In this document: positions 1,706-47,123 of the stretch, piece by piece
How positions within the stretch are numbered: the first letter of the stretch is position 1
Layout of the letters: every line of letters begins with the position of its first letter
NCBI GenBank assembly: GCA_937139565.1
Contig: CAKZQH010000010.1
Coordinates: 1-51,330, forward strand
DNA length: 51,330 nt
From: an uncultured Nitrospiraceae bacterium
Lineage (GTDB): Bacteria > Nitrospirota > Thermodesulfovibrionia > Thermodesulfovibrionales > Thermodesulfovibrionaceae
Direction: 5' to 3'
Notes under the pieces: generated by a model
What the model was told of the DNA's origin: nothing
Databases searched by the model: none
What the model saw: only the letters and a program-made list of their open reading frames with translations
Position numbers and translations under genes: made by a program

Positions 1706-3109
1706 CTATTTGGTTACTTCACCCCCTAATACTTTATAGAGATTAACCAGGTTTACAACCTTTGAAAGCCTGATGTTGTTGAGCTGTTGCTGAGCTTGAA
1801 ATAGGGCTCTCTGAGCATCGAGCACGCTTAAATAATTATCTATGCCATTTTCATATCTAATCTTTGCTAGTCTGTAGGTTTCTGAAAGAGCTTTCACAAG
1901 CGATTGGATTGCTTGTAGCTGTTCATCTATTGTGCCTTTTACTGCAAGGGTATCAGAAACCTCTTTAAAGGCTGTCTGAATGGTTCTTTCATAACGAACA
2001 AGAGCGATTTCTCTTTCTACTTTTGCAGCTTCATGGGCTGTCCAAACTCTTGCATCGAATATGGGCATTAAAGCCTGAGGCTGGAATGTCCATGCCTTAC
2101 TACCACCTTGAAATAGTCCGGACAATTCTCTGGATGCTGTTCCAAACACAGTGGTAAGTGAAATTCTCGGGAAAAAAGCTGCTCTTGCAGCACCTATCTG
2201 CGCATTGTATGCCTTTAGTGTGTGCTCAGCTGCTATTATATCAGGCCTGCTGAGAAGTATTTCAGAGGAAAGACCTGCTGAAATGTCTTTGGGAGGTATA
2301 AGTGAATTTTCCAAATCCTCTGGCAAAAGTTCCTCTGAAATTATTTCTCCAGCAAGAAGGTCGAGAGTATTTTTATCCTGAGCAAGACTCTGGGTATATC
2401 TTGCTACCGCTTCTCTTGCAGTTTCAACCTGTGTTTTTGCCCTGTGAAGGTCTATCTCAGATATGGCTCCAACCTGGTATTTCTTTTCCATTAGCTCATA
2501 CATCTCCTGCTGACTTTTAAGGGTTTCCTTTGCCAATTTTAGATTTTCCTTGTCTGTTGCATAGGTATAGTAAGCAGTGGCAACAGCACAGATAAGGGAA
2601 AGTTTTGCTGCTCTATGGGTTTGTTCCTCAGCAAGGTACTGTTCAAGTGCCATCTCCTTTAAACTGCGAATTCTTCCGAATAAATCAATCTCCCACGAAA
2701 TAATTCCTAAGCTTACATTGTATTTTGAGGATATATTTGACTTTCCTGTTGAAGAAAGGTCTGCTGGTAATCTTTCTCTGTAAACAGAGCCACTTAAGTC
2801 AACAGAAGGCAGTAGTTCTGCCCTTTGGATACCATAATAGGCTGCAGCTCTTTCAACATTTAAGGCAGAAAGCCTTAAGTCTCTGTTGTTAGATAGAGCT
2901 ATTTCAACAATTTTTTGTAGATTCTTATCTACAAGAAATTCATTCCATTTAAGTTCTGTTGCCTTAGGTGCTTTATCATAATCTATTGAATTGTAGGCTT
3001 CACCAGAGGGCCATTGTTTTGGTATAGGTGCATCTGGTCTTTTATACTCAGGAATCATTGTACAACCACAAAAGATTAATACAATTAGGGAAAGAACTAA
3101 TTTTTTCAT
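1706..3109 (-). CDS. Outer membrane efflux lipoprotein, TolC/OprM (NodT) family
   Basis: This is the outer membrane channel of a tripartite RND efflux system, forming the exit duct for substrates taken up by the pump encoded just upstream. The 467-residue protein begins with a lipoprotein signal whose lipobox ends at Cys16 (LIFCGC). It then shows the two repeated alpha-helical/beta segments typical of the family, including the 'LLSRPDI' motif near the middle and 'VLDAQRALFQAQ' near the C-terminus. Its ATG overlaps the stop of the RND gene by 4 nt (ATGA), with AGGA eight bases upstream. It is therefore translationally coupled as the last efflux gene of the operon. Length and motifs match OprM-type lipoproteins rather than plain TolC. 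The substrate cannot be read from sequence. Confidence 0.9.
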   Translation of the reverse strand: MKKLVLSLIVLIFCGCTMIPEYKRPDAPIPKQWPSGEAYNSIDYDKAPKATELKWNEFLVDKNLQKIVEIALSNNRDLRLSALNVERAAAYYGIQRAELLPSVDLSGSVYRERLPADLSSTGKSNISSKYNVSLGIISWEIDLFGRIRSLKEMALEQYLAEEQTHRAAKLSLICAVATAYYTYATDKENLKLAKETLKSQQEMYELMEKKYQVGAISEIDLHRAKTQVETAREAVARYTQSLAQDKNTLDLLAGEIISEELLPEDLENSLIPPKDISAGLSSEILLSRPDIIAAEHTLKAYNAQIGAARAAFFPRISLTTVFGTASRELSGLFQGGSKAWTFQPQALMPIFDARVWTAHEAAKVEREIALVRYERTIQTAFKEVSDTLAVKGTIDEQLQAIQSLVKALSETYRLAKIRYENGIDNYLSVLDAQRALFQAQQQLNNIRLSKVVNLVNLYKVLGGEVTK

Positions 3110-6100
3110 TTAACTGTCCTTACTCTAAAGAGTTTTAAAATGAGAACAAAGAAAAGAGGCACAAAGACAATGCTTATAAAGGTTCCTGCAATTACTCCAC
3201 CTTCAATGGCTACACCAATAGCATTCATTGCACCTGAGCCAGCACCTCTTGCTATGGCAAGGGGTAGAATTCCGAAGAAAAGTGCAAGAGAGGTCATTAT
3301 AACAGGTCTGTATCTTATTGTTGCTGCCTCAATAGTTGCTCTATGGAATTCTTCGCCTTGTTTTATTCTATCTCTTGCAAATTGGATTATAAGAATGGCA
3401 TTCTTTGAGGAAAGTCCCATGGTAACAAGGAATCCGATCTGAAAGTAAACATCATTGTGTAGTCCCATAATCCATGTTGCCACCGCTGAACCAAAGATAC
3501 CAATAGGAAGCAGTATAAGGTTTGTGATAGGAATTGTCCAGGATTCGTAAAGAGCTGCAAGACATAGGAATATGACAAAAACAGAAAACGCATAAAGAAT
3601 CGGAGCCTGACCTGTTGCAAGTCTTTCCTGATAGGAAGATCCAGTCCAGGCATGACCTACTCCTTTTGGAAGTTTTGCTATTATCTCCTCAACAGCCTTC
3701 ATAGCCTCTCCAGAGCTATGTCCTTTTCCAGGCTCTCCCCAAATATTCAGAGAAGGAAAACCATTGTATCTTTCAAGTCTTGGAGAGCCATAAATCCATC
3801 TTCCAGAAGCAAAGGATGAAAAAGGAACCATTTTCCCTTCATTATTACGAACATATAGACGATTTAAATCTTCAGGCAACATTCTATAGGGTGCATCAGC
3901 CTGCACATAAACTCTCTTTACCCTTCCTCCTTTTATAAAATCATTAACATAACTGCTACCAAAGGCTGCTGAAATAGTGTTGTTAATTGAAGCAATAGGC
4001 ACACCTAAAGCACCTGCCTTTTGCCAATCCACATCAACTTTATATTCGGGAATATCGTCCATGCCATTTGGTCTTACGCTCTTCAGGCGTGGATCTTGAT
4101 TTGCTAGATAAAGAAATTGATTCCTTATCTCCATCATCTTTTGATGACCCAAACCACCCATATCCATTAGTTGCAGGTCAAATCCTGTTGCATTTCCAAG
4201 CTCTATAATTGAAGGAGGAGGAAATACGAATATCATGGCTTTTTTATTTGCTGCAAAATTCATCATTGCCCTTTGTTGAATTGCCTTTACTCTCAAGCTT
4301 GCTTTGTCTCTTAAATGCCAGTCCTTGAGCTTAATAAAAGCCATTCCAGAAGATTGAGCCCGTCCAGAGAAACTCATTCCTGCGATGGTGATTATAGAGT
4401 CAACTGCATCTTTTTCTTTTTGTAAAAAATATTCCTTTACTTCATTTAACACCTGCTGTGTTTGCTCAAGAGTAGAACCAGAAGGCAAAATTACCTGCGC
4501 AAGCATCATTCCTTGGTCCTCATCAGGAAGATAGGAAGTGGGAAGCTTTAAAACAATAAGCCCAAGAATTGCAACTATCAATATATAGACAAAAATGTAA
4601 ACTGGAACCCTTCTAAAAGAATTTTCAACAACCTTAGTATAGAAAAATCGAGACTTAAAAAAGAAACTGTAAAATTTTTCATAAATAATATGGAAGTAAT
4701 AGAGCAGATTTTTTCTTTGAGGACGACCTTCTGCATGGGATTTTAAAAAAGTAACACAAAGAACAGGCGCCAGAGTAAGGGCAACAAAAACAGAAAGGAG
4801 CATTGCAGATATTATTGTTATGGCAAACTGCCTGTATATTACTCCTGTAGAACCTTTGAAAAAAGCCATTGGAGCAAAAACAGCAGAAAGCACAACTCCA
4901 ATTCCAATCAATGCACTGGTAATCTGGTGCATAGACTTTATAACAGCTTCCCTAACAGAAAGCTTTTCTTCTCTCATTATTCTCTCTACATTTTCAACAA
5001 CCACAATCGCATCATCCACTAAAAGTCCTATTGCAAGAACCATTGCAAACATGGTGAGCATATTTATTGAATAGCCAGCCATACCAAGTACAGCAAAAGT
5101 ACCAAGAAGAACTACAGGAACAGTAATTGTTGGTATCATTGTGGCTCTGAGACTTCCAAGAAACAGCCACATTATTAAAAAAACAAGCACAATGGCTTCA
5201 ATAAGGGTTTTTACAACTTCTTTTATTGCAACCTTTGTAAATGGAGTAGTATCGTAGGGATAGACAACTTTAACTCCAGAAGGGAAATTTCTGCTTAATT
5301 CTTCTAACTTTTTCTTTACTTTTTCTGCCACATCAAGGGCATTTGCTCCAGGAAGGGGTCTCACTGCAAGTGCAGCCGCAGGCTTGCCATTGTAGAATGC
5401 TTCTATGTCGTAATAGTCAGTTCCGAGTTCTACCCTTGCTACATCTTTTATTTTTACCGTTGAACCATCAGGATTTACTCTCACTGGAATATCTGCAAAT
5501 TCATCGGGTTGTTTAAGCATGCTTTGAACGATTATTGGCGCATTTAGTCGTTGTCCCTCCTTTGCAGGAACTCCTCCAATCTGACCACCAGAAACCTCCA
5601 CATTGTATGCCTTTATCGCAGATATAACATCGCTAATAGTCAATCCATAGCTTACAAGTTTGTGAGGCTCTATCCATATACGCATTGCATAGGGAAAACC
5701 AAAGGTTTCAACCTCACCAACTCCTTCAATTCGTGCAAGCACCTTTTCCACATTAGATTTCAAATAATCTCTGAGGTCATAGGCATCAAGTCTTCCATCT
5801 TCTGAGATGAGAGAAACTATTAAAAGATAGTTTCTAGTTGCCTTTCCTACACTTATTCCTGTTTTCTGTACAGACTCAGGAAGACTTGGCATGGCAAGCT
5901 GAAGCTTATTTTGAACCTTAGCCCAAGCAAGATCAGGATCTGTTCCTGGTTCAAAGGTAAGTTCAATTCGACAACTACCAGATGAATCACTTACTGCAGA
6001 CATATAAAGTAGTCTGTCTAATCCTGTCATCTTTTCTTCAATAATCTGGGTCACGCTATTTTCAACAGTTTCAGCAGAAGCACCAGGATAGGTTGCTTGA

Positions 6101-6240
6101 ATGTAAATTGATGGTGGAGCAATGGATGGATACTGAGCAACTGGAAGATTGTATATGGCAAGACAGCCTGCTCCCATTATGGCAATGGCAATAACCCATG
6201 CAAAAACTGGCCTTTCAAGAAAAAATTCGCTTATTTTCAC
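3106..6240 (-). CDS. RND efflux pump, HAE1 family (AcrB/MexB-like)
   Basis: This is the proton-driven inner membrane pump of the tripartite efflux system. At 1044 residues it has the usual AcrB length, with two halves that each consist of a transmembrane bundle and a large periplasmic porter/docking region. The proton-relay aspartate pair of TM4 is visible in 'GLLVDDAIVVVEN'. The N-terminus (FFLERPVFAWVIAI) and the C-terminal helix bundle are also typical. The start is a GTG at 6240 that overlaps the stop of the membrane fusion gene (GTGA), with GGAG about eight bases upstream. The HAE1 subfamily normally exports hydrophobic and amphiphilic compounds such as drugs, dyes and bile salts. The actual substrates here are unknown. 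Expression is probably controlled by the TetR-type repressor encoded first in the operon. Confidence 0.95.
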   Translation of the reverse strand: MKISEFFLERPVFAWVIAIAIMGAGCLAIYNLPVAQYPSIAPPSIYIQATYPGASAETVENSVTQIIEEKMTGLDRLLYMSAVSDSSGSCRIELTFEPGTDPDLAWAKVQNKLQLAMPSLPESVQKTGISVGKATRNYLLIVSLISEDGRLDAYDLRDYLKSNVEKVLARIEGVGEVETFGFPYAMRIWIEPHKLVSYGLTISDVISAIKAYNVEVSGGQIGGVPAKEGQRLNAPIIVQSMLKQPDEFADIPVRVNPDGSTVKIKDVARVELGTDYYDIEAFYNGKPAAALAVRPLPGANALDVAEKVKKKLEELSRNFPSGVKVVYPYDTTPFTKVAIKEVVKTLIEAIVLVFLIMWLFLGSLRATMIPTITVPVVLLGTFAVLGMAGYSINMLTMFAMVLAIGLLVDDAIVVVENVERIMREEKLSVREAVIKSMHQITSALIGIGVVLSAVFAPMAFFKGSTGVIYRQFAITIISAMLLSVFVALTLAPVLCVTFLKSHAEGRPQRKNLLYYFHIIYEKFYSFFFKSRFFYTKVVENSFRRVPVYIFVYILIVAILGLIVLKLPTSYLPDEDQGMMLAQVILPSGSTLEQTQQVLNEVKEYFLQKEKDAVDSIITIAGMSFSGRAQSSGMAFIKLKDWHLRDKASLRVKAIQQRAMMNFAANKKAMIFVFPPPSIIELGNATGFDLQLMDMGGLGHQKMMEIRNQFLYLANQDPRLKSVRPNGMDDIPEYKVDVDWQKAGALGVPIASINNTISAAFGSSYVNDFIKGGRVKRVYVQADAPYRMLPEDLNRLYVRNNEGKMVPFSSFASGRWIYGSPRLERYNGFPSLNIWGEPGKGHSSGEAMKAVEEIIAKLPKGVGHAWTGSSYQERLATGQAPILYAFSVFVIFLCLAALYESWTIPITNLILLPIGIFGSAVATWIMGLHNDVYFQIGFLVTMGLSSKNAILIIQFARDRIKQGEEFHRATIEAATIRYRPVIMTSLALFFGILPLAIARGAGSGAMNAIGVAIEGGVIAGTFISIVFVPLFFVLILKLFRVRTVK

Positions 6241-7370
6241 TGAGCGGTCTCCTGTTTTTTCATATAGGAAGAGGCCTTTACCACACCTCCTGGCATTATC
6301 TTCTGAACGCCTTCTATGATAACCTTTTCACCTTCCTTAAGACCCTCTGCAATAAGCCATTTATCACCTATTGCACGGTCAATCTTTACAGGTCTTATCT
6401 GTACTTTGCTCTCTGCATCCACTATGTATGCGAAGGGATTTCCCTTAGGATCCCTAAAAATACACTGCTGGGGGAGTAAAATCGCATCTTTTTTTATCCC
6501 TTCTTTTACAATCGCCCTTACAAACATTCCAGGAAGTAAAATTCCCTTTGGATTAGGAAAAAGTGCCCTGAGAATAACCGAACCTGTTGTTGGATCAACA
6601 GTTACATCCTTAAACTGGAGTGTGCCTTCAAGAGGATATAATGTTCCATCTTCAAGTAATAACTTTACTTTATTTTGCTCTTTTCCAGCATATTTGAGCC
6701 TTCCTTCCTCAAGCCTCTTTTCCAGCTCTCTTAGCTCCTTTGTTGACTGAGGAATATCAACATAAATGGGATCAAGTTGTTGAATTCTCGTAAGCTCCTG
6801 AACCTGATGGGCAGTTACAAGTGCTCCTTCTGTGACATTTGACTTACCAATTCTTCCTGAAATTGGAGCCCTAATTTTAGTATACCCGAGATTTATCTCA
6901 GCAGCTCTTACTTGAGCTTTTAATGCCTCTATTTCCGCCATGGTTTGGTAATACTGGGCCTTTACATCGTCATACTCCTGTCGGCTTATGGCATTTACCT
7001 TAATAAGCTCTTCATAACGCTCATATCTTGCCTTTATTGAATTTAAACTTGCCTCAGCTCTTGCAAGAGCAGCCTTTGCACTATCATAAGCTGCACGATA
7101 GGTTGATGGATCAATTAGATATAAAACATCTCCTGCCTTAACATCTCCTCCTTCAGTAAAATACCTCTTAAGAATAATGCCACTTACCTGTGGTCTTATT
7201 TCTGCTATCCTATATGGTGTTGTCCGCCCCGGCAATTCGGTTGTGAGGGTGACTTCTTCAGCTTTAATTTCTATAATCGAGACTTCAGGTACTTGAGCCA
7301 CAGATTTTTTCTTTTCGCAGGCAGAAAGAATAAAAAATAGGATAAACAAAAATATTAGACCTTTTTTCAT
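6237..7370 (-). CDS. RND efflux membrane fusion lipoprotein (AcrA/MexA-like)
   Basis: This periplasmic adaptor links the RND pump to the outer membrane channel. The N-terminus is a lipoprotein signal with lipobox LSAC, placing the lipidated Cys at residue 18 of the ATG-started form. After it come a beta-barrel/lipoyl half ('TTPYRIAEIRPQVSGII'), a long alpha hairpin (about residues 90-160) and the second lipoyl half ('IRAPISGRIG'), which is the standard adaptor order. An alternative TTG start lies two codons upstream at 7376 and would overlap the tetR stop. I prefer the ATG at 7370, just after that stop and downstream of an AGGTG sequence. The gene sits between tetR and the pump gene and overlaps the pump gene by 4 nt. 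Confidence 0.92.
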   Translation of the reverse strand: MKKGLIFLFILFFILSACEKKKSVAQVPEVSIIEIKAEEVTLTTELPGRTTPYRIAEIRPQVSGIILKRYFTEGGDVKAGDVLYLIDPSTYRAAYDSAKAALARAEASLNSIKARYERYEELIKVNAISRQEYDDVKAQYYQTMAEIEALKAQVRAAEINLGYTKIRAPISGRIGKSNVTEGALVTAHQVQELTRIQQLDPIYVDIPQSTKELRELEKRLEEGRLKYAGKEQNKVKLLLEDGTLYPLEGTLQFKDVTVDPTTGSVILRALFPNPKGILLPGMFVRAIVKEGIKKDAILLPQQCIFRDPKGNPFAYIVDAESKVQIRPVKIDRAIGDKWLIAEGLKEGEKVIIEGVQKIMPGGVVKASSYMKKQETAQ

Positions 7371-7372
7371 CG

Positions 7373-7960
7373 TCAATCTTTCACCTCTTTTTTCTTTAAA
7401 ATTCCATTAAAAATAAAATCTATAGTAGCGTCGGTTTCAATCAGATTTTCCTGATCAACAACTACTGAGAGGACATATCCCCGGATTATGTTCATTATTA
7501 ATTTTGATAACTCCTCAGAATTACAACTTCTGAAAATTCCTGAATTAATGCCTTCATTTATTACTCCTGTTAGAAAAGCTTTTTCTTTCATGAAAAACTC
7601 CCTTTTTATTTCAATACCAAAGGTAAACCCCTGTTCTTTACTTTGCATAATTATAAGTTCTCTATTTTCTCTAGCAAATTGAAGGGCAACAGTCAAATAT
7701 TTTTTAATAATTTCATCGGGAGATTTTAAATTTTTAAGATTATTTCGGATTCTCTCCTGAAGTTCTTTCATTTTCTCCCGCAGAAGATAAAGGGAGAGTT
7801 CTTCTTTGTTTTTAAAATAAAGATAAACACAGCCAACACTTAATTTAGCCTCTTTTGCTATCATTCTAATTGTAGCTCCGTTGTAGCCATACTCGGAAAA
7901 GACTTTGATGGCTGCTTCAATAATCCTTTTCTTAGTTTCATGTCCTGAACGCTTGTTCAT
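7373..7960 (-). CDS. TetR/AcrR family transcriptional repressor of the efflux operon
   Basis: This 195-residue one-component regulator has an N-terminal helix-turn-helix (about residues 10-55; 'GATIRMIAKEAKLSVGCVYLYFKNKEELS'-type core) and a variable all-helical ligand-binding C-terminal half. It is the first gene of the efflux operon on the minus strand, and its stop is next to the start of the membrane fusion gene. A pair of palindromes, TGAAC-N4-GTTCA, covers its own start codon (7946-7975) directly downstream of a promoter with a perfect TTGACA. That arrangement points to autoregulation and to repression of the whole operon. No Shine-Dalgarno sequence precedes the ATG. The inducer is unknown but is likely one of the pump's substrates. 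Confidence 0.92.
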   Translation of the reverse strand: MNKRSGHETKKRIIEAAIKVFSEYGYNGATIRMIAKEAKLSVGCVYLYFKNKEELSLYLLREKMKELQERIRNNLKNLKSPDEIIKKYLTVALQFARENRELIIMQSKEQGFTFGIEIKREFFMKEKAFLTGVINEGINSGIFRSCNSEELSKLIMNIIRGYVLSVVVDQENLIETDATIDFIFNGILKKKEVKD

Positions 7961-8115: not shown

Positions 8116-8144
8116 TTGTAATTTTAAAAAAAATTTGATACACT
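8116..8144 (+). promoter_or_regulatory. Weak candidate promoter of the bd-like/diiron operon
   Basis: TTGTAA (8116-8121), a 17-nt spacer and TACACT (8139-8144) resemble a sigma-70 promoter, with four of six matches in each box. The start point would fall at about 8151, so the ATG at 8152 or 8155 would be leaderless. That agrees with the lack of any Shine-Dalgarno sequence before it. The boxes are weak, so this is tentative. Confidence 0.25.
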
Positions 8145-8151
8145 TTTTTCA

Positions 8152-9204
8152 ATGATGGACGCCATATCTTTAATACCATATGCTGAAGCAGTTCCCGTTC
8201 CTCCGTTGATTCTCATTTTTCTTGAACAGCTGTTTTTCCTTATACACATAATTCTTGTGAATTCCATACTTGGTGTTGGGTTAATTCTTCTATACAAATG
8301 GAAAAGAACCGTGGATTTCTTTGATATTAACAGGCCTCTTGCGAGAAGGATTCCAATTTTCTTTGCCCTTGCAATAAACATGGCAATTCCTGCCCTTTTG
8401 TTCCTGCAGGTTGTTTTTGGTCATTTATTTTATTCAAGCTCTGTTCTCATGGGAACCTTCTGGATTTTGATAATTCCCATTCTCATTATTGCCTACTACA
8501 GCTCCTATTTTCACTATAAAAAATTTGGAGTTTCTCAATATGCAAAATACTCTTTGATTTTGATGATTTCCCTTGTTCTCTATGTGGCATTCATACTTGT
8601 AAACAATCTATCAATGATGGAGATGCCTGAGAAGTGGAGCCTTTATTTTTCAGAAAGGGGAGGAACCATTCTTCTGTGGAGCGTTTCAAGCATATATCCG
8701 AGATTTCTCCACTTTATTGTGGCCTCCCTTGCAGTGGGAGGTATTGTTTATGCCTTTTATTTCAGTAAAAAGTCAAATTCTGAGAAGAATGCTATGGATG
8801 GCATCAGGATTTTTGCCTATGCAACCATGGTTCAAATGGCTGTTGGAGTGTGGTTTCTTGTGAGCTTGCCAGAAAGTATTATGCTTAAGTTCATGGGCAG
8901 AGACAGTGTCGCTACCCTTGTGCTCGTCGCAGGTATAGGAACAGCAGTTTTATCAGTCATATTAGCCTTTAAAAATAATCTAAAAGGCACATTAATATTT
9001 CTCCTTATAACATTGATTGCTATGGTGATAAATAGATACAATTTGAGAATTTTCTCTCTTGAGGATAAATTTAGCCCTACAAGTCTGGAAATTTCTCCGC
9101 AGTGGGATGTTTTTGTGCTTTTTGTGGTCATTTTGCTCATAGGGGTAGGAGTACTCTTTTATATGGTAAAAATCTCATTTAAAGGCAAAGAGGAAGCTAA
9201 ATGA
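8152..9204 (+). CDS. Cytochrome bd oxidase-like (CydA-type) integral membrane protein
   Basis: This 350-residue protein is almost entirely hydrophobic, with about nine predicted transmembrane helices, and recalls the N-terminal half of cytochrome bd subunit CydA. His32 sits in an early helix ('FFLIHIILVNS'), where CydA has the heme ligand of 'MYHFLF'. His187 lies in 'FLHFIVASLAVGG', which closely parallels the CydA segment around its heme b558 ligand His186. Its stop overlaps the start of the next gene by 4 nt (ATGA), so the two proteins are probably made together and form one complex. The CydA 'Q-loop' and a CydB partner are absent, so it is not a canonical bd oxidase. Electron transfer between the quinone pool and the fused cytochrome is an inference. 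The start could be either of two consecutive ATGs. Confidence 0.7.
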   Translation: MMDAISLIPYAEAVPVPPLILIFLEQLFFLIHIILVNSILGVGLILLYKWKRTVDFFDINRPLARRIPIFFALAINMAIPALLFLQVVFGHLFYSSSVLMGTFWILIIPILIIAYYSSYFHYKKFGVSQYAKYSLILMISLVLYVAFILVNNLSMMEMPEKWSLYFSERGGTILLWSVSSIYPRFLHFIVASLAVGGIVYAFYFSKKSNSEKNAMDGIRIFAYATMVQMAVGVWFLVSLPESIMLKFMGRDSVATLVLVAGIGTAVLSVILAFKNNLKGTLIFLLITLIAMVINRYNLRIFSLEDKFSPTSLEISPQWDVFVLFVVILLIGVGVLFYMVKISFKGKEEAK

Positions 9205-11852
9205 ATTATCCTGTTTGGGAACTTTACTATCTCAATTCAGGAACTGTTGTAGCCATAATTGCAATTCTACATGTATTTATTTCTCATTTCGCAGTGGGTG
9301 GAGGAATATTTCTGTGGCTTACTGATCTTAAAAGTGTTCGGGAAAACAATCTCCCTCTTCGAGAATATGTTCGAAGGCATCTGTGGTTTTTCCTTCTTGT
9401 TACAATGGTGTTTGGTGGTGTATCTGGTGTTGGAATATGGTTTTCCATTGCTCTTTCAAATCCTGCAGCAACTTCCTTACTTATTCACACCTTTGTATTT
9501 GCTTGGGCAATAGAGTGGGTTTTCTTTATAGTTGAGATAGTTTCTCTTCTTATCTATCACTACAGATTTGAGGTTCTCTCCAACAAGCAAAGACTTACAA
9601 TAGCATTTATATATGCTCTTTCGGCTTGGTTAAGCCTTTTTGTAATAAATGGAATCCTGACCTTTATGCTAACTCCTGGAGAGTGGCTTAATACAAGGAA
9701 TTTCTGGGATGGATTCTTTAATCCAACCCATTTGCCAGGCCTCTTTTTTAGAACCTCAATTTGTATTATGTTTGCAGGGCTTTTTGGATTTGTAACAGCC
9801 CTGTATCAAAAGGATGAAAAGCTTAAAGTTACACTGCTTCGTTACTGTGCAAAATGGCTTTACATTCCGCTTCCTTTTCTCTTCTTATCAGCTGTATGGT
9901 ATTTCTCCTCTTTGCCTGAAAGTGCAAGGTTTACAAATTTTGTGCTCAACAAGCAGACTCAAAATCCTTTGAATGTGTTTCTCTTTTCATCGGTGCTTAT
10001 CTATATTGTGGCCATCCTCTTTGTCCTTAAAACAAATAAAATCATCCAGAAGGTTGCTTTAATTCCACTCTTACTTATAGGACTCTTCTGGATAGGCTCT
10101 TTTGAGTATTTGCGGGAGTATGCGAGAAAGCCTTACATAATATATGGTTACATGTATTCTCCGTCGATTATCGTTACCGATGCGGAGAAATTAAACAAAG
10201 AAGGATTCCTCAAACATGCAAAATGGACAAAAATCAAGGAAATAAGCGAGGAAAATAAGATACAGGCAGGAAGAGAGCTTTTCAACTTACAATGCCTGAG
10301 TTGCCATACAATAGGTGGAGTAAAAAATGACATTATCAAAAAAACCGAAGGACTTACCTATCTTGGAATTGTCTCTCAGATATATGGTCAGGGTAAAGTT
10401 CTTGACTATATGCCTAAATTTGTTGGAACTGAAAGGGAGATCGAAGCCCTTGCATCATTCATAGTGAGCTTAAGAGGAAAGAAGGAAGAACCACATGCAG
10501 AATTCACTCCTAAGGAAGAGCCAGTCTTTATACCATCCTTTGATCCAAAAAAGGATGAATATGTGCTTCTTGTTTGGAGTGTGCTTGGAGAAAAATGTAT
10601 TACCGATTCAGATAGATGGTTTTCCTTTCTTTATGCTGGAAGCACCCTTCAGGCTTTGTTGATTAAGAGGGGAGTAAAACCAGAAATAATCACAGAGGGA
10701 GTAGAGATCCATTACATACCTCCAAGAGGACATGAAAATCCCTCAAAATATCTCGATTTCTGGAAATACTCGGAGTCATTGAGAGGAAAGAAAATTCCTG
10801 GAAACGTAGGTGTCAGCGGAAAGACAGTGCGAGGAGTATTTGACTTTGACAAGGATAGAAAAATCTTCATTGCCGATGCAGTTCCTGTTTCTCCATATAG
10901 TGATGACGGTGCTTTTAATCCTTATCCAATTTTTGATGCAAAGGCAATTGAAAAAAGCACTGGTAAGGTTTTACAGCAAACACGCTTCGTTGTTCCTGTA
11001 TCTACAGAGCTTAGATGCTTTGTATGTCACGGTGGAAAACCTCGTTTTAACGGTATTTCAGGCATCTCTGATGAGACTGCTATAAATATTCTTAAAATAC
11101 ACGATAGAAATCACGGTACAAAGCTATATGAAAATGCCTTGAAGGGCAAGCCTATGATGTGCCAGAAATGCCATGAAGACTTTATTGTTAAGTCTGAGGG
11201 AATAAAGGGACACAACAGTTTCTCTGCATCTATGCACGGCTGGCATGCCAACTATGTACCATACAAGGATGAAAGAGCTTGTAACTTCTGCCATCCAAAT
11301 GATGCTAAAGGAAATACGAGATGTAACAGAGACATACATACAAAGCTTGGTATAGGATGTACTCGCTGTCATGGAAAACTGGATGACCATGCAGCATCTG
11401 TGCTTCTTGCCCAGAAAGACTCACGAACAGCGTCCATACTTCTAAAAAATCTCAAACCTGAGACGCCAATTGAAAAAATAAATCCACGCAAACCATGGGT
11501 AAATCAGCCAGACTGTCTTAGTTGTCACATCGGATTTACTAAGCCTTCAGCTGATGCAAATGGTTTTAACAAATGGACCTCTGATTTTGGCACCCTTTAC
11601 AGGGTAAGAATGGATAATACAGGAAAAATTCCTTGCACTGCCTGTCACAGCTCTCCACATGCAGTTTATCCCGCATTCAATGACTTTGGGAAAAACAGGG
11701 ATAATATCCAGCCAATGCAGTATCAGGGAAATCCATTTCCAATCGGTGCAGACATGAAATGTGAAGTATGCCACAAGGTTAAAATTCAAGGCACAGGGCA
11801 CCATGCAGATATTTTAAAGATGTTCAGAAATAGAAAAGCTTTACAGCAGTAA
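9201..11852 (+). CDS. CydA-like membrane domain fused to an octaheme cytochrome c
   Basis: This is an 883-residue fusion. Residues 1 to about 305 form roughly eight membrane helices similar to CydA: His24 matches the heme ligand of the first CydA helix, and Glu105 and Glu112 ('IEWVFFIVEI') match the conserved glutamates of CydA. However, the position corresponding to the b558 ligand is Arg184 ('FFRTS'). After it comes a mono-heme cytochrome c domain (Cys365 to His369), a beta-rich region without hemes (about 435-600), and a seven-heme tail with CxxCH motifs starting at Cys606, 654, 694, 720, 772, 812 and 854, eight in total. The heme part should be outside the membrane, in the periplasm. It is co-translated with the preceding bd-like gene and followed by an oxygen-binding diiron protein. 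It may be a terminal reductase or a quinol-cytochrome link; oxygen reduction is not shown by sequence. Confidence 0.8.
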   Translation: MNYPVWELYYLNSGTVVAIIAILHVFISHFAVGGGIFLWLTDLKSVRENNLPLREYVRRHLWFFLLVTMVFGGVSGVGIWFSIALSNPAATSLLIHTFVFAWAIEWVFFIVEIVSLLIYHYRFEVLSNKQRLTIAFIYALSAWLSLFVINGILTFMLTPGEWLNTRNFWDGFFNPTHLPGLFFRTSICIMFAGLFGFVTALYQKDEKLKVTLLRYCAKWLYIPLPFLFLSAVWYFSSLPESARFTNFVLNKQTQNPLNVFLFSSVLIYIVAILFVLKTNKIIQKVALIPLLLIGLFWIGSFEYLREYARKPYIIYGYMYSPSIIVTDAEKLNKEGFLKHAKWTKIKEISEENKIQAGRELFNLQCLSCHTIGGVKNDIIKKTEGLTYLGIVSQIYGQGKVLDYMPKFVGTEREIEALASFIVSLRGKKEEPHAEFTPKEEPVFIPSFDPKKDEYVLLVWSVLGEKCITDSDRWFSFLYAGSTLQALLIKRGVKPEIITEGVEIHYIPPRGHENPSKYLDFWKYSESLRGKKIPGNVGVSGKTVRGVFDFDKDRKIFIADAVPVSPYSDDGAFNPYPIFDAKAIEKSTGKVLQQTRFVVPVSTELRCFVCHGGKPRFNGISGISDETAINILKIHDRNHGTKLYENALKGKPMMCQKCHEDFIVKSEGIKGHNSFSASMHGWHANYVPYKDERACNFCHPNDAKGNTRCNRDIHTKLGIGCTRCHGKLDDHAASVLLAQKDSRTASILLKNLKPETPIEKINPRKPWVNQPDCLSCHIGFTKPSADANGFNKWTSDFGTLYRVRMDNTGKIPCTACHSSPHAVYPAFNDFGKNRDNIQPMQYQGNPFPIGADMKCEVCHKVKIQGTGHHADILKMFRNRKALQQ

Positions 11853-11902
11853 TTCTATTCAATTAAAATTATTTTAAAATCCTTTTAATCGAGGAGGAAC
11901 AA

Positions 11903-12691
11903 ATGCCACCTAAAACCAGAGAAGTTGATATTGTAAGAGGAGACACTCTTTATGACGATGGAGTCCATAAATTCATATGGCTTGGATGGGAAGAACATGA
12001 AGAAGAGGGACTTGTTCAGGTGAATCAGTATCTTATTGAAAACAGAGGAATGGGGGTTATTCTTGATCCCGGAGGAGTTCATGTGTTTCCGAGGGTTGTT
12101 GCAAATGTATCCCGTTATGTTGATCTCGACAAAATTGGGCATCTGTTCTTTTCTCATCAGGACCCTGATGTATCTTCTGGCGTTGCCCTTTGGTTAAGTG
12201 TAACAAATGCAAAGGTTTATATCTCAAAATGGTGGGTCAGATTTCTCCCTCACTATGGCATTTTCGATATGAATAAAATTGTTCCTCTTGAGGAGGGAGG
12301 AGGACGTATTGCCCTTCCAAGTGGTGATTATCTTGAAATAATACCTGCCCATTTTCTTCATTCTGTGGCAAACTTTCATGTCTATGATCCTCGTTCAAAG
12401 ATTCTATTTACAGGAGATCTGGGAGCTGCAATCTTTCCAAAAGGACAGAGATATACTTATGTGGAGGACTTTGACAGTCATTTAAAGCTCATGGAAGGGT
12501 TTCACAGAAGATATCTTGCATCAAACAATGTTATAAGAAGATATCTTGAAAGGATAAAAAACCTTGATATAAATGTGGTTGCACCTCAGCATGGAGCTAT
12601 AATGCACAAAAAAGAGCACATTCAGAGATTTTTTAACTGGCTTTCAGGGCTCAAGTGCGGTTCTGACTTAATAGATGAATTCTATCGATAG
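11903..12691 (+). CDS. Oxygen-binding diiron protein (ODP), metallo-beta-lactamase fold
   Basis: This 262-residue protein is the diiron domain of the flavodiiron (FprA) family without the flavodoxin part. The metal-binding pattern is visible as His85-x-Asp87-x-Asp89 ('SHQDPD'), a histidine at 150 or 153, Asp172 in 'FTGDLGA' and His230 in 'APQHGAI'. The HQDPD form, in place of the HxExDH of oxygen-reducing flavodiiron proteins, is characteristic of ODP. In Treponema denticola ODP is an oxygen/iron sensor that works with a cytoplasmic chemoreceptor. Here too the next gene, 10 nt downstream, encodes a soluble chemoreceptor. The start has a strong GAGGAGG upstream. Oxygen sensing is an inference from family and context; a catalytic role without a reductase domain seems less likely. 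Confidence 0.85.
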   Translation: MPPKTREVDIVRGDTLYDDGVHKFIWLGWEEHEEEGLVQVNQYLIENRGMGVILDPGGVHVFPRVVANVSRYVDLDKIGHLFFSHQDPDVSSGVALWLSVTNAKVYISKWWVRFLPHYGIFDMNKIVPLEEGGGRIALPSGDYLEIIPAHFLHSVANFHVYDPRSKILFTGDLGAAIFPKGQRYTYVEDFDSHLKLMEGFHRRYLASNNVIRRYLERIKNLDINVVAPQHGAIMHKKEHIQRFFNWLSGLKCGSDLIDEFYR

Positions 12692-12701
12692 GAGGAAGTG
12701 A

Positions 12702-13577
12702 ATGTTTTTTAGAAGAAAAAGAGTTTCGTCCAATAATAGTAAGTTGGTGGATACTAATCTTGCATTAATCAAAACTCTCTCTGCAGGAATAATAAAGTCA
12801 AATATTGTGGGTTCAACCATATCAAATACAATGGGACTTATAGAATCCAATTTTACAAGAATTAAAGATGAAGTCTCCTCAATCGCAACTGCCATGGAAG
12901 AAATTGATGTTACCATTAGGGATATGTCAAAAAGTGTTGCCTCCATAAATATGGAAGTTCAGGCAATGGTAAAGCAAAATGATTCAATGGATGAAGAACT
13001 TGAGAGAAGAGTAAATGACATAGAGTCTCACAATCGCAAAATAATTGAAGTTGTTGATAACATAAAAGACCTTGGTCATGCCACTGAAAATATCGGAAAC
13101 ATTGTAACTTCTATTTCGGATGTGGCGGATCAGACAAATCTTCTTGCTTTGAATGCATCAATAGAAGCAGCAAGGGTAGGTGAGGCAGGAAGGGGTTTTG
13201 CAGTGGTAGCCGATGAAATCAGGAAACTATCTCAGAAAACTGAGGCACTCACAAAGGACATTAGTAAAATTCTGGGAAACCTGCGAGAAAGAGTAACATC
13301 AGCGGTTGTTGAGGTTGAAAAAATAAGGGAACTCTTTTTAAGCATCGAAGAGGATATGAAAAATATTAGAAAATCCTTTGAAAAAACCAAAACTATGTCT
13401 GATACTGTTGGAGATGCAGTAAATACCCTTTCTACTGCAATTGAAGAGCAAAGTCAGGTACTCACCGATGTTTCAAAGCGAATTACAAATACTGCATCAA
13501 TGTTAAATGAGACCTATAAGGTATTCTCTACAGTAATAAAGGTAAATGACGAAATATCAAAGCTTACAAAATTTTAG
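12702..13577 (+). CDS. Cytoplasmic methyl-accepting chemotaxis protein (no sensor domain)
   Basis: This 291-residue protein has the conserved chemoreceptor signalling hairpin ('DQTNLLALNASIEAARVGEA', then 'GRGFAVVADEIRKLS') at about residues 140-185, flanked by long coiled coils. There is no signal peptide, no transmembrane helix, and no PAS, GAF or other ligand domain. It must therefore take its input from a partner protein, and the ODP gene ends 10 nt upstream. An AGGAGG sits before the ATG. Its 3' end overlaps the next gene by 32 nt. By analogy with spirochete ODP systems it would pass oxygen or iron status to CheA. No CheA or CheW is encoded in this window, and the output could instead be linked to the c-di-GMP enzyme that follows. 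Confidence 0.88.
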   Translation: MFFRRKRVSSNNSKLVDTNLALIKTLSAGIIKSNIVGSTISNTMGLIESNFTRIKDEVSSIATAMEEIDVTIRDMSKSVASINMEVQAMVKQNDSMDEELERRVNDIESHNRKIIEVVDNIKDLGHATENIGNIVTSISDVADQTNLLALNASIEAARVGEAGRGFAVVADEIRKLSQKTEALTKDISKILGNLRERVTSAVVEVEKIRELFLSIEEDMKNIRKSFEKTKTMSDTVGDAVNTLSTAIEEQSQVLTDVSKRITNTASMLNETYKVFSTVIKVNDEISKLTKF

Positions 13578-16500
13578 TTGTGACGGAGAAAATTTTAACT
13601 TTGCCCTCTGTCCTCATGTAAATGAGAATGACGTTTCTAAGTGGGAGAGTATTGCTGAACGGATTTCCTCTGTAATAAATAAAAGAGTTACACTGAATCT
13701 TTTCTCCAACAATTTTGACATTCCCTTAGCAGATAAGTGCTGTCACATGTACTATGCAAATCCTGAATTAACCCTTGAGCTTTTAAAGAGAGGCTACCTA
13801 CCAGTGGCTAAACTTAAGGACGCTCAAGAAAGCCTGTGTAGTATTTCGTTACAAAATTATGAGCCTAACAAAAAATCTGTTAGAGTTGCTTTAGTAAATC
13901 AAAGATATTTTCTACTTCCACTTCTTATGCACAAGAGAGAGTTTAAAAAATTTAAACTTGTATTCGTAAAAAACTACACAGAAGCTCTTGAACTTTTAAG
14001 AGCAAATAAGGTTGATTTAGCCTTTATTTATACACAGTTTGCAAATACCCTTAAGGAGGATAAATCTATAAATTTCGTTGAGGACTATTGTTTTCCTCTA
14101 CCTCACTACATACTAATTCATCCTTCCCTTGAGCCTTATAGGGATGCAATTGAAGGAATAGATTTTTTCAAACCTGTTAAAGAAAGTGACATAGATTATC
14201 TTAAATCGCTTTACGAAATGCTTGATAAACTTCTTGCTGATTGGGCTCATCATGATATTGCAGAAGCTGTAATAGGCTCACCAAATTTTGGGGTTATAGT
14301 TTATCAGGAAAAAATTGTATATGCAAATGAATATGCAAGGGAAATCCTCGGATACTCAGAGGAAGAGCTATTCAGAAAAAGTGTTTTAGAGATTATACAT
14401 GCAGAAGATAAAGAGATGATAGAACTTTTAAAGGATAGATACGAAAAGAGACTTAAAGGAGAGAAATTTATAGGAACCTACGAGTTACCTTGGAAAAAAA
14501 AGGATGGCACCATCGTTTATACGAGATGCTTTACCAGTACAATTCTTTTTAAGGGAAGATATTCTGGCTTTATTTTACTTACTGATATAACTGAACAAAA
14601 ATTTGCAGACAAATTTAAAAATATCCTGATGGAAATAAACAAAGTAATAACAAAAAGTCTCACTGAAGAGGAAATATATGAAGGAGTCTGCAGAGCCCTC
14701 ACAGAGAAGCTTGGAATGGTTTTTGTCTGGATATCTGAACTGGACGAATCAAAGAGCAAATTACGGATAAAATATAAATGTGGAGATGACAGAGGAATAT
14801 TCGATGTATATGATTTTAAAATATCCTCATCTGATACAGTCACATACGAATCATTAGAAAAAGGAAAAATCATTGTAAATCCAAATTCAATTGAATACGC
14901 TAAAAGGGTTTCCTGTGCAGAGGAACTTGTAAAAAGAGGGTTTCTCTCATCATGCACAATACCATTTATTAAACACGGCAAAGTGATTTCGCTTTTAAAA
15001 ATTTATTCAGCCCAGCCAAATTTTTTCAATGAATCTGTAATGGAAATTCTTGAAGAGATTCAGAACGATATATCATTTGCTCTTGAAAAAATAGAAATGA
15101 TAAGAGAAAATCTCATATTGTCCGAGTCTTTAAAAAATTCAGATACCTGGATTTTGATAACAGATATAAATGGAAGAATTACTTATGTGAATGATGCGGT
15201 AGAGAGAATAAGTGGATACAGAAGGGATGAACTTATTGGAAAAAATCCAAGAATTTTTAAATCAGGGCTTAATCCTCCTGAATTTTACAAGGAAATGTGG
15301 AACACTATCCTTTCTGGCAAAGTTTTTCGTGCTGTTACTCCTAATAGAAAAAAGGATGGTGAGATATTTCATGTGGATTTAAAAATTATACCTGTTAAAC
15401 TTCCTGGAGGAGAACTTAAGTTTGTTGCTGTTGCAGAGGATATTTCAGAGAAGATGAAACTCTCTGAGAGAGTTCAGGAATTACAGAACTTTGATGCCCT
15501 TACAGGACTGCTCAATATGAACGGATTTTCAGCAAATATATCTCAACATCTTCAGGAAACATCAAGGCTCGGGCTTTTAATCTTAATTGATATTTATGAC
15601 ATGACATATATAAACAAAATTCTTGGTATATCAAACGGTGATAGGTTATTGCAGGAATTTGCAGAGAGACTTAAAAAGACCTTTGGAGACACCGAATTTG
15701 TCGCAAGAATAGGTGCAGATACCTTTGGAATCTATTTAGTAACAGAGAGCTCTGATGATCTTTATAAAGCCTACTCTAAAATTTATGGATTAAACAATGC
15801 AGTCTTTAAAATTAATGAAAAAACAATTTCTGTGAACATAAATGCAGGAATTACCATTTTTCCAAAAGATGGGAAAAACTTTAAAATCCTCTATGAACGA
15901 GCAGATATTACTCTACAACAGTCAAAGAAAATGGGTCCTGGTCATATTCAGTTTTTTGATCCTGTGATTGAAGATGAGGCAGAAAAGCTCTGGGATGTAT
16001 TTTATCTTGTTAAGAAAGCTAAAGAGGAGAATCTCTTTAGATTTTACTATCAGCCCTATTATTATGCTGATACATTAGAGATAGCAGGTTTTGAAGCTTT
16101 GGTTAGAATAATTGATAAAGAGGGAAAGCTTTACACTCCTAATGTTTTTATAGATTATTTAGAAAACAGTCAATATCTTGAATTTTTTGAGCAGTGGGCA
16201 ATTTCAGAGGTAAAGGAAAAAATAAAGAAGTGGAATAAGAGGATATCTCTAAACATATCAGGCAGAACTTTTAGTAATCCCCTTTTTTCGGTAGTTATTT
16301 CTGAAATTAATTCACAGCTAAGAGATAAGCTTACCATCGAGATCACCGAGCGACTTTTTATAAAAAATCCAGAATATGCCATTCAAATTCTCTTAGATAT
16401 AAAACGTATGGATAGCCCACCTCAAATTGCAATGGATGACTTTGGCACAGGATATTCTTCAATTGTTTATCTCAAGGATTTGCCAATTGACATCATAAAA

Positions 16501-16731
16501 ATTGATAGAAGTTTTACTAAGGATATGATGAGTGATAAGAAAAGTTTAGTAATTGTTCAGACAATCATAAATCTTGCAAAAAGACTAAAAAAAATCGTCC
16601 TTGTTGAGGGAGTTGAGACTGAAGAACAATTCGATATTGTAAAAAATTTTGGATGTGATTTAGTTCAGGGATATCTCTTCTCAAAGCCTCTTCCAGAGGA
16701 AGAGATTGAAAAGTTGTTAATCAATAATTGA
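13546..16731 (+). CDS. PhnD-like/PAS/GAF/PAS/degenerate GGDEF/EAL c-di-GMP phosphodiesterase
   Basis: This 1061-residue cytoplasmic protein has no signal peptide or membrane helix. The domains in order are a PhnD/SBP-like solute-binding fold (about 1-235), PAS (about 240-355), GAF (about 360-515), a second PAS (about 525-640), GGDEF (about 640-790) and EAL (about 815-1055). The GGDEF motif is changed to GADTF at residue 723, so cyclase activity is unlikely, although GTP binding is possible. The EAL domain keeps EALVR (Glu850), 'EITERLF', 'DDFGTGYSS' and 'VEGVET', so hydrolysis of c-di-GMP to pGpG is likely. The ATG lies 32 nt inside the end of the chemoreceptor gene and is preceded by AAAGG. 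The N-terminal PhnD call is a pattern judgement. The protein probably ties the oxygen module to lifestyle or motility control. Confidence 0.82.
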   Translation: MTKYQSLQNFSCDGENFNFALCPHVNENDVSKWESIAERISSVINKRVTLNLFSNNFDIPLADKCCHMYYANPELTLELLKRGYLPVAKLKDAQESLCSISLQNYEPNKKSVRVALVNQRYFLLPLLMHKREFKKFKLVFVKNYTEALELLRANKVDLAFIYTQFANTLKEDKSINFVEDYCFPLPHYILIHPSLEPYRDAIEGIDFFKPVKESDIDYLKSLYEMLDKLLADWAHHDIAEAVIGSPNFGVIVYQEKIVYANEYAREILGYSEEELFRKSVLEIIHAEDKEMIELLKDRYEKRLKGEKFIGTYELPWKKKDGTIVYTRCFTSTILFKGRYSGFILLTDITEQKFADKFKNILMEINKVITKSLTEEEIYEGVCRALTEKLGMVFVWISELDESKSKLRIKYKCGDDRGIFDVYDFKISSSDTVTYESLEKGKIIVNPNSIEYAKRVSCAEELVKRGFLSSCTIPFIKHGKVISLLKIYSAQPNFFNESVMEILEEIQNDISFALEKIEMIRENLILSESLKNSDTWILITDINGRITYVNDAVERISGYRRDELIGKNPRIFKSGLNPPEFYKEMWNTILSGKVFRAVTPNRKKDGEIFHVDLKIIPVKLPGGELKFVAVAEDISEKMKLSERVQELQNFDALTGLLNMNGFSANISQHLQETSRLGLLILIDIYDMTYINKILGISNGDRLLQEFAERLKKTFGDTEFVARIGADTFGIYLVTESSDDLYKAYSKIYGLNNAVFKINEKTISVNINAGITIFPKDGKNFKILYERADITLQQSKKMGPGHIQFFDPVIEDEAEKLWDVFYLVKKAKEENLFRFYYQPYYYADTLEIAGFEALVRIIDKEGKLYTPNVFIDYLENSQYLEFFEQWAISEVKEKIKKWNKRISLNISGRTFSNPLFSVVISEINSQLRDKLTIEITERLFIKNPEYAIQILLDIKRMDSPPQIAMDDFGTGYSSIVYLKDLPIDIIKIDRSFTKDMMSDKKSLVIVQTIINLAKRLKKIVLVEGVETEEQFDIVKNFGCDLVQGYLFSKPLPEEEIEKLLINN

Positions 16732-42856: not shown

Positions 42857-42868
42857 AGGAGGGAAAAT

Positions 42869-43036
42869 ATGACAGATGAATCAAAACTTAAAGAGGAACT
42901 TCAAAAGATGGAAGCAGAGTATGAACCCCTGCTTCCTGTTGAAAAAAAGCTCATCATCTGGAGCATAGGACTCGGAATTGGGCTTCTATTTGTTCTTGTT
43001 TGGGTTAGCTATACTTTTTTCCCAGGAACACACTAA
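42869..43036 (+). CDS. Small single-span membrane protein (55 aa)
   Basis: This 55-residue open frame begins ATG at 42869 after AAAGGAGGG, 12 nt past the transporter stop. The first 27 residues are charged ('MTDESKLKEELQKM', then 'EKK'), followed by one membrane helix (about 28-50, 'LIIWSIGLGIGLLFVLVWV') and a short tail 'FFPGTH'. I do not recognise the family. Its place suggests an accessory or assembly subunit of the YeiH-like transporter. The Shine-Dalgarno site and codon use like its neighbours make it a real gene in my view. Confidence 0.75.
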   Translation: MTDESKLKEELQKMEAEYEPLLPVEKKLIIWSIGLGIGLLFVLVWVSYTFFPGTH

Positions 43037-43041
43037 GAAAA

Positions 43042-43066
43042 ATAGGAGGGGGATGCCCTCTCCTAT
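43042..43066. terminator. Hairpin after the YeiH-like operon
   Basis: ATAGGAGGGGG and CCCTCTCCTAT form an 11-bp stem with one G-U pair and a 3-nt loop, six bases after the stop of the 55-residue gene. There is no T-run on the plus strand. On the minus strand five Ts follow, but no minus-strand gene ends here. It may be an RNA-stabilising hairpin or a weak terminator of the transporter operon. Confidence 0.4.
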
Positions 43067-43162
43067 AACAACCAAGCTCTTCATGTAGTTCAAGATGTTT
43101 CATCTCAGGATTATCTTAAGCAGATGCTAAAAATAGATAATTCTCGATTTGCTTTAAAATAG
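43046..43162 (+). pseudogene. Possible C-terminal gene remnant
   Basis: A 38-codon open stretch ends at TAG 43160-43162 and reads like coding sequence ('NNQALHVVQDVSSQ', then 'DYLKQMLKIDNSRFALK'). It has no start codon: the frame is closed by TAG at 43043-43045, and the only ATG is 12 codons before the end. It may be the tail of a deleted gene. I do not recognise a family. Confidence 0.3.
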
Positions 43163-43184
43163 GCCTCTCTGGTTTAATTAATTT

Positions 43185-45611: not shown

Positions 45612-47119
45612 GTAATGAACTTTTAATTAATGTTACGAAACAGGAATGTAGAGTTGCCCTTCTTGAGGGTGGGCAGGTGGTTGAATTTTATATAGAAAGA
45701 AAAGGAGATTCCAGTTTTGTCGGGAACATTTATAAAGGTAGAGTCGTTAAAGTATTAAAGGGTATGCAGGCTTGCTTTATTGATATCGGATTAGATAAGG
45801 CAGCATTTCTCTATGTGGATGATATTAGAGGTGGTATTAAAGAACTCTACCCCTTTCTTGAAGCAGAAGAGGAGACAGAGTTCATATCCAAGCTCGACTT
45901 TAAAGATGCCTCCATAGAGGAACTCGTGCAGCAGGGACAGGAGATACTTGTTCAGGTTGCTAAGGATCCGATAGGCACAAAAGGAGCAAGAGTCACTTCT
46001 CGAATCACTCTTCCTGGAAGATATGTAGTACTTATGCCTGGAATGGAACACATAGGGATTTCAAGAAAAATTGAGAATGAAGAAAAAAGAAAGGAATTAA
46101 AGGAGATTGCTACAAAAATTAAACCAGGTGGGTTTGGGCTAATAATGAGAACAGTTAGTGAAGATGCAACAGAGGAAGAAATTCAAAGAGATATAGATTT
46201 TTTGCTTCTATTATGGGATAACATTCAGAAAAAAAAGGACAAAATACATGCTCCCTCTCTCATACACAGTGAGTTTGATCTTGTGCTCCGTAGTCTTCGT
46301 GATTTTATGAATCAGAATGTGGATCGTCTCGTAATTGATAGTTATAGCGAATGGATGAGAATTAAAGAGTTTGCCCATGTTTACTTCCCACGAATCGCCG
46401 ATAAAATAGAACTCTACGAAGGTGATGAGCCCCTATTTGAAGCTTTTGGAATAGAAGTTGACCTTGATAGGGCTCTTGAGAGAAAAGTTTGGTTAAAATC
46501 AGGTGGATATATTGTAATAGACCAGACAGAGGCAATGACAGTAATTGATGTGAATACTGGTAAATTTGTTGGCAAAGAAAATTTAGAAGACACAATTTTA
46601 AGAACCAATCTCGAAGCAGTAAAAGAAATCGCTTATCAGATAAGACTTAGAAATTTAGGGGGAATAATCCTCATTGATTTTATAGATATGGAAAAAGAAG
46701 AAAACAAACAAAAAGTTTTAAATGCCATGGTTGAGGCAATGAAGAAAGATAGAGCCAAGACGACCATATATAACATTACAGAGCTTGGAATAGTTCAGAT
46801 GACAAGAAAAAGAACAAGGGAAAGCTTGGAGCATATTCTCTGCGATAGCTGTCCTTACTGCGAAGGGAAAGGAAGGGTAAAGAGCATAAGGTCTGTTGCC
46901 TATGAGATACTAAGAAAACTTAAATGTCTTGCCTTGCAAGAAGGAACAGAGATTACGGTTGTAGCTAATCCCTATGTGGCAGATTTACTCACTGATGAAG
47001 AAAGAGATTCCCTTGAAGAACTCGAAAATACGAGAAAAATTAGAATTACCATTAAGAAAGATTCAACCATTCATCAGGAAATATATCACCTTCGCAAAAA
47101 TCTTCCAGTAACTGAATAG
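45608..47119 (+). CDS. rng: Ribonuclease G (RNase E/G family)
   Basis: This 503-residue endoribonuclease processes 16S rRNA 5' ends and decays mRNA. It has an S1 domain (about 35-125, 'GNIYKGRVVKVLKGMQACFIDIG'), the 5' sensor region and the DNase I-like catalytic core with the magnesium aspartates in 'TVIDVNTG' and 'ILIDFIDM'. The zinc-link cysteines appear as 'CDSCPYCEGKGRV'. It lacks the long C-terminal scaffold of RNase E, hence RNase G. The start is a TTG overlapping the previous stop (TTGA), with GGAGG 12 nt upstream; no better start fits. Confidence 0.93.
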   Translation: MSNELLINVTKQECRVALLEGGQVVEFYIERKGDSSFVGNIYKGRVVKVLKGMQACFIDIGLDKAAFLYVDDIRGGIKELYPFLEAEEETEFISKLDFKDASIEELVQQGQEILVQVAKDPIGTKGARVTSRITLPGRYVVLMPGMEHIGISRKIENEEKRKELKEIATKIKPGGFGLIMRTVSEDATEEEIQRDIDFLLLLWDNIQKKKDKIHAPSLIHSEFDLVLRSLRDFMNQNVDRLVIDSYSEWMRIKEFAHVYFPRIADKIELYEGDEPLFEAFGIEVDLDRALERKVWLKSGGYIVIDQTEAMTVIDVNTGKFVGKENLEDTILRTNLEAVKEIAYQIRLRNLGGIILIDFIDMEKEENKQKVLNAMVEAMKKDRAKTTIYNITELGIVQMTRKRTRESLEHILCDSCPYCEGKGRVKSIRSVAYEILRKLKCLALQEGTEITVVANPYVADLLTDEERDSLEELENTRKIRITIKKDSTIHQEIYHLRKNLPVTE

Positions 47120-47123
47120 AAAA

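Follow-up and report, generated by a model that had tools for sequence, protein, structure and literature searches.

An octahaem bd-like gene pair beside an ODP, chemoreceptor and EAL gene trio in a relative of Thermodesulfovibrio: a candidate locus for oxygen removal and sensing

Five closely spaced genes in the genome of an uncultured Nitrospiraceae bacterium raise the question whether an anaerobe joins the removal of oxygen to its sensing and to signal output in one unit. The window analysed here, a stretch of 51,330 nucleotides, is contig 10 of a 1.99-Mb genome. The named records among the closest relatives of this genome are Thermodesulfovibrio, and it was placed in this genus through those relatives; the host is a thermophilic sulfate-reducing bacterium. 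The first-pass annotation of the window had described five plus-strand genes separated by a 4-nt overlap, a 50-nt gap, a 10-nt gap and a 32-nt overlap, and the open reading frames confirm the coordinates (Table 1) and all four distances. The five genes form two modules, the bd-like pair g1-g2 and a trio that encodes an ODP, a chemoreceptor and an EAL protein. Given that g1-g2 is conserved in different phyla and that ten genomes with differing flanks share the five-gene order, a chance arrangement can be ruled out.

Table 1. Position, strand and basis of the features discussed in the text.
Feature	Position	Strand	Basis
Promoter-like site of g1: TTGTAA, 17 nt, extended -10 TGATACACT	8116..8144	+	Sequence
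g1, bd-fold membrane subunit, CydA'-like partner, 350 aa	8152..9204	+	AlphaFold2, Foldseek, hhalign
g2, octahaem bd-like subunit, 883 aa	9201..11852	+	Eight CxxCH; Foldseek
CydA-like core, g2 residues 1-330	9201..10190	+	Alignments, profile
Cytochrome c domain (CBB3 type), g2 residues 345-430	10233..10490	+	Pfam PF13442; cytochrome c6 matches
Heptahaem domain, g2 residues 450-883	10548..11849	+	Motif counts, conserved His
Promoter-like site before ODP: TTTACA, 18 nt, TAAAAT	11840..11869	+	Sequence
ODP, oxygen-binding di-iron protein homologue, 262 aa	11903..12691	+	Pfam ODP E 2e-74
Sensorless soluble chemoreceptor, 291 aa; signalling tip near 13137-13235	12702..13577	+	MCPsignal
c-di-GMP phosphodiesterase-like protein, 1061 aa	13546..16731	+	Pfam domains, motifs
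Junction between two genes found on either side of the module in relatives; the block probably once stood here	42857..43184		Flank comparison

The annotation of g1 and g2 as a bd-like pair with eight CxxCH motifs in one member held up, as the bd fold was found in both subunits and g2 contains exactly eight such motifs (residues 365, 606, 654, 694, 720, 772, 812 and 854). CydA chains ranked at the top when the model of g2 (pLDDT 88.6) was searched with Foldseek. The Pfam family Cyt_bd_oxida_I scores barely above its cut-off in this protein, and profile comparison agrees with the assignment. Alignment of the g2 core to the canonical CydA of the source genome and to 5doq shows that the oxygen-site residues H24, E105, E112 and E306 are kept, and they are invariant in 54 of 54 sequences. 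They correspond to H19, E99, E107 and E445 of E. coli, the last of these in ARKPY versus GRQPW. In E. coli bd, these residues are ligands of the oxygen-site haems, and H186 is the b558 ligand. The position of H186 is occupied by Arg (R184 in g2), and Arg is found there in all 54 aligned sequences. In the cytochrome c domain that follows the core, the haem motif is CLSCH at residue 365 and M404 is invariant. Beyond its seven haem motifs, the heptahaem domain has seven conserved His residues (634, 679, 682, 713, 730, 820 and 867/868) that seem suited as distal ligands, and this number would be enough to coordinate each haem from either side. With one additional conserved His for each haem, the domain looks more like a wire than a catalytic centre. 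Stand-alone secreted or lipoprotein cytochromes with 7-8 haems belong to the same family as the heptahaem domain and were seen at four loci in other genomes of the order, in sister families.

The partner subunit g1 has no Pfam match. Its AlphaFold2 model (pLDDT 95) matched bd oxidase subunits in Foldseek with a probability of 1.00 (best TM 0.71/0.75, 9r2g_D), and hhalign aligned g1 to g2 at 95% (E 3e-8). Judged by sequence, g1 is a paralogue of g2. The fold itself fits either bd subunit, but the CydB profile reached a probability of 1% against 95% for g2, and g1 was rejected as a CydB. Conserved residues of g1 are H32, Q86, H187, M291 and R295 (59 sequences). We do not claim M291 as the b558 Met (M393), as it apparently lies on a different helix.

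With the CydAB quinol oxidase, g1 and g2 share the fold of both subunits, and g2 keeps the oxygen site. Unlike CydAB, the pair has no b558 His, no recognised quinol-site region and no CydB at sequence level, and it combines eight fused c-haems with a paralogous partner subunit. Canonical cydAB is also encoded in the source genome, and g1-g2 would therefore be a second, different oxidase. The non-quinol bd families OR-C and OR-N and the CydAA' pairs (Murali et al., 2021, as described in PMC10839748, PMC12342949 and PMC13189123) offer a closer comparison, as far as these descriptions go. Like them, g1-g2 consists of two related CydA-type subunits with no quinol site and likely a cytochrome c donor, and the combination that marks non-quinol bd enzymes is present: the bd fold, a kept oxygen site and an absent quinol/b558 site. 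The extra heptahaem domain of g2 sets the pair apart from OR-C/OR-N, when compared by the descriptions of those families. The closest shorter relatives were found in sister families and are CydA-like proteins of about 437 aa that have one cytochrome c domain, lack the heptahaem part and come with a g1-like partner of 403 aa. In cable-bacteria genomes, CydA homologues but no complete bd oxidase were reported (PMC10030654). Neither an octahaem CydA fusion nor an ODP associated with c-di-GMP was found described in the literature searched, outside which the paper defining the non-quinol families lies, and the octahaem fusion is new within the bd superfamily as far as that literature goes.

Relatives of the pair were found by a scan of one genome per species, which gave 360, and the best 80 of these were retrieved. 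Among these best 80 of 360, g1-g2 is present in more than ten phyla; by record title, the carriers belong to Thermodesulfobacteriota, Bacteroidota, Ignavibacteria, Calditrichota, KSB1, Gemmatimonadota, Verrucomicrobia, Glassbacteria, Krumholzibacteria, Spirochaetes and others. Exactly eight CxxCH motifs were counted in every full-length g2 homologue (88/88), and g1 stands directly before g2 in nearly all loci that cover this stretch. No partner gene recurred beside g1-g2 across the loci examined outside the genus. With only two genes, an apparent haem wire of its own and a haem number that is constant across phyla, this enzyme is a clear candidate for the way in which strict anaerobes without a classical oxidase consume O2. 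The g2 of two Thermodesulfobacterium loci is nested within the Thermodesulfovibrio branch of the tree, with support of 93/91, a placement that points to horizontal transfer between these thermophilic sulfate reducers.

Both the electron donor of g1-g2 and O2 as its substrate are predicted here from the families to which the proteins belong, and NO or a different oxidant is also conceivable as substrate. Alternatively, g1-g2 might be a bd-derived gate to extracellular acceptors or reduce NO or a sulfur or nitrogen oxide, and not O2. The heptahaem domain does resemble the stand-alone multihaem cytochromes of the order that are secreted or are lipoproteins, and most carriers of the pair are anaerobes, judged by name. 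We nevertheless regard this alternative as unlikely, because every copy retains the CydA oxygen-site ligands but has lost the quinol/b558 site, which leaves an outward path with no evident quinol input. Moreover, the conserved His residues suffice for full coordination, so that no haem of the heptahaem domain is obviously catalytic.

For the third gene, the ODP with an HQDPD motif named in the first-pass annotation is confirmed by a Pfam score of 250 bits, compared to a cut-off of 27.2 for PF19583, with the motif at residues 85-89 (nt 12155-12169) and further His/Asp ligands present. The protein matches PDB entries 6qrq (E 8e-100) and 6qnm (E 5e-99) over its full length with the same HQDPD, and shares 50-56% identity with homologues from the spirochaete phylum. 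The receptor gene next to it indeed encodes a chemoreceptor with no sensor domain: the MCP signalling domain is its only domain, it has no membrane part, and in its length of about 290 aa and its position beside ODP it is of the Treponema type. Its signalling region aligns almost gap-free with that of the membrane receptors of the genome, and it could therefore enter the same arrays; the ODP-linked receptors of about 290 aa from two other phyla also align with it almost without gaps. CheW and FliG are also encoded in the source genome. In Treponema denticola, ODP is an oxygen sensor with a genetic link to a sensorless receptor that can modulate CheA (PMC7666581), and the ODP-receptor pair of this organism is a known oxygen-sensing arrangement (PMC7666581; reviewed in PMC6978683). 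Thus TDE2498/TDE2496 share with the genes described here an HQDPD protein adjoining a receptor of about 290 aa that has neither membrane nor sensor part (PMC7666581), and this pair is already known; what differs is the third gene, for the PAS/GAF/EAL protein, and relatives that pair ODP with c-di-GMP enzymes or fuse it to GGDEF. By analogy with these families, ODP is predicted to bind the receptor. In sister families, ODP was found within a chemotaxis cluster with CheA, CheB, other che genes and membrane receptors at four loci.

The fold of ODP is the beta-lactamase domain of flavodiiron proteins, and the protein could thus be read as an enzyme, a flavin-free FDP-like scavenger of O2 or NO that supports the oxidase by detoxification and does not sense. 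We consider this very unlikely. ODP has no flavodoxin domain, and an FDP-like protein (about 407 aa) is encoded separately in the genome. Furthermore, a sensorless receptor of about 290 residues is its constant partner in three phyla, and every close ODP relative in Spirochaetota and Thermodesulfobacterium stands beside one; in other relatives the neighbours are GGDEF/EAL genes, or ODP is fused to GGDEF.

The last gene encodes a protein in which the first-pass annotation had recognised PAS, GAF and EAL domains. These are present (PAS 252-333, GAF 372-514, PAS 529-635, EAL 824-1048) and the catalytic motifs of EAL are intact (EALVR, ITER, DDFGTGYSS, KIDRSF and EGVET), but a degenerate GGDEF domain (648-797), with IGADTF in place of the active-site motif, and an N-terminal region of about 230 aa of no recognised type had been overlooked. 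In domain order of the C-terminal half and in its intact EAL motifs the protein resembles the DibA-type PAS-GGDEF-EAL phosphodiesterases (NCBIfam), from which it differs by the degenerate GGDEF and the N-terminal region; its score is well below the cut-off of that family. Phosphodiesterase activity is accordingly a prediction from family membership. Several relatives have a split or shortened copy of the EAL gene, which could imply that the role of its product is dispensable, and the gene may be decaying or variable. The 32-nt overlap of the EAL gene with the receptor gene is, on the sequences compared, peculiar to the source genome: a start was possible about 1-15 nt past the receptor stop in the 12 relatives examined, and the corresponding codon in the source genome is TGT (13546-13600), leaving only an upstream ATG.

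Links between ODP and c-di-GMP enzymes are found more widely. ODP overlaps or abuts GGDEF-EAL genes in other Nitrospirota, and pairing or fusion with c-di-GMP proteins was seen at four loci of Desulfobacterota and Spirochaetota (one of them L321), so that three phyla have an ODP adjacent to GGDEF/EAL proteins or fused with them. Among 62 ODP loci, which were picked by similarity to the ODP of the source genome and are no census, 40 have an MCP gene within 1.5 kb, seven a c-di-GMP gene (one locus has both) and one is a fusion. Such neighbours or fusions would give a known oxygen sensor of chemotaxis a second output. Fusions of an ODP-like domain with GGDEF or a related output domain were noted in Nitrospirota and Spirochaetota, three of them with GGDEF (L257:1977-3746, L259:5790-7568 and L260:4899-6650) and a fourth at L321:178-2298; they are candidate one-protein oxygen sensors acting on c-di-GMP.

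Our preferred reading, which we hold to be probable, is that g1-g2 is an O2 reductase supplied via c-haems and not by quinol, and that the neighbouring trio serves as a cassette for oxygen/iron sensing. Electrons would be gathered from the periplasm by the heptahaem domain and move on through the cytochrome c domain of g2 to the CydA-like core, which, with g1 as its bd-fold partner, would reduce O2 to water with no quinol oxidation. ODP would bind iron and O2 and change how the sensorless receptor signals; this receptor would join chemoreceptor arrays and act on swimming, and the PAS/GAF/EAL protein would lower c-di-GMP on the same or a related cue. The output of the trio is most likely to chemotaxis, and less surely to c-di-GMP. 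With both modules the anaerobe could remove O2 at the membrane and also swim away from it or switch its surface lifestyle. The EAL protein may be coupled to ODP, and joint action of the two modules is a reasonable conjecture; an integrated unit of oxygen removal and signalling is plausible but supported only in part.

Whether the neighbourhood reflects such a link depends on how the five-gene order behaves across genomes. The trio lies directly after g2 in nine of the 15 genus genomes with g2 (in one across a contig break) and in one sister-family genome, hence in 10/16. The tree of g2 places this order in all basal lineages and needs at least four separations, and on this evidence the order appears ancestral to the genus plus the one sister genome. 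In the remaining six genus genomes g1-g2 has no adjoining trio. After separation, the genes for ODP, receptor and EAL protein are together elsewhere in four genomes (the EAL gene being split in one and shortened in another); no separated trio was found in G004, nor in the incomplete genome G003. The expectation that the order would extend across relatives is thus borne out for the genus and the sister genome, but not elsewhere. An ODP of similar kind is found in only 3/16 other genomes with g1-g2, plus one distant longer protein, and ODP also occurs in sister families that lack the octahaem protein. The proposal that oxygen removal is joined to sensing, chemotaxis and c-di-GMP therefore stands for the parts and for their order in the genus, and not as a fixed unit. 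A single five-gene system across anaerobes was rejected, since beyond the genus and the one sister genome the trio does not stand beside g1-g2.

These breaks bring in a further explanation, that g1-g2 and the trio were juxtaposed once in the ancestor of the genus and have remained mere neighbours, each working alone. We give this somewhat less than an even chance. It would account for the isolated occurrence of the pair, free of conserved neighbours, in more than ten phyla, for the retention of g1-g2 through at least four breaks of the order, and for the promoter-like site that the trio has of its own. It fits less well with the order in all basal lineages, with the persistence of all five genes side by side in ten genomes whose flanks differ, and with the movement of the block in the source genome. 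The outer flanks vary among many of the ten genomes. In relatives, a 580-aa gene precedes g1 (two genomes, G009 and G013) and an 808-aa gene follows the EAL gene (six genomes); in the source genome these flanking genes (41114-42856 and 43185-49685) are direct neighbours at a distance of 24 kb from the module, and the five genes therefore appear to have moved as one block. Directly upstream of g1, a TetR-regulated RND efflux operon (TetR, adaptor, pump and TolC-like protein) runs divergently at 1706-7960 on the minus strand; it showed no conservation in the loci of relatives. Going beyond our preferred reading of a c-haem-fed O2 reductase beside a sensing cassette, we propose, tentatively and with more doubt than belief, that g1-g2 represents a widespread undescribed class of 'wired' bd oxidase, fed through eight haems from periplasmic or extracellular electrons in anaerobes of more than ten phyla, and that ODP is a plug-in sensor whose chemotaxis and c-di-GMP outputs are combined in the Thermodesulfovibrio cassette and tied to the oxidase.

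The promoter-like sites bear on how the two modules are transcribed. The site of g1 ends 7 nt upstream of the start codon, and TGnTAnAAT occurs 7-12 nt upstream of g1 in 11 of 14 genomes, compared to 0.5 expected from shuffles. A Shine-Dalgarno sequence is absent before g1 in 13 of the 14 genomes, and a strong one precedes ODP. With the promoter-like site so near to the start codon, the mRNA of g1 is probably leaderless. Upstream of ODP the same motif lies at 27-35 nt in 7/14 genomes (0.9 expected). No terminator-like site was found in the gap between g2 and ODP, so that read-through from g2 into ODP is possible. In one genome (G012), g1-g2 and the trio lie about 8 kb apart in opposite orientation, as if an inversion had split g2 from ODP.
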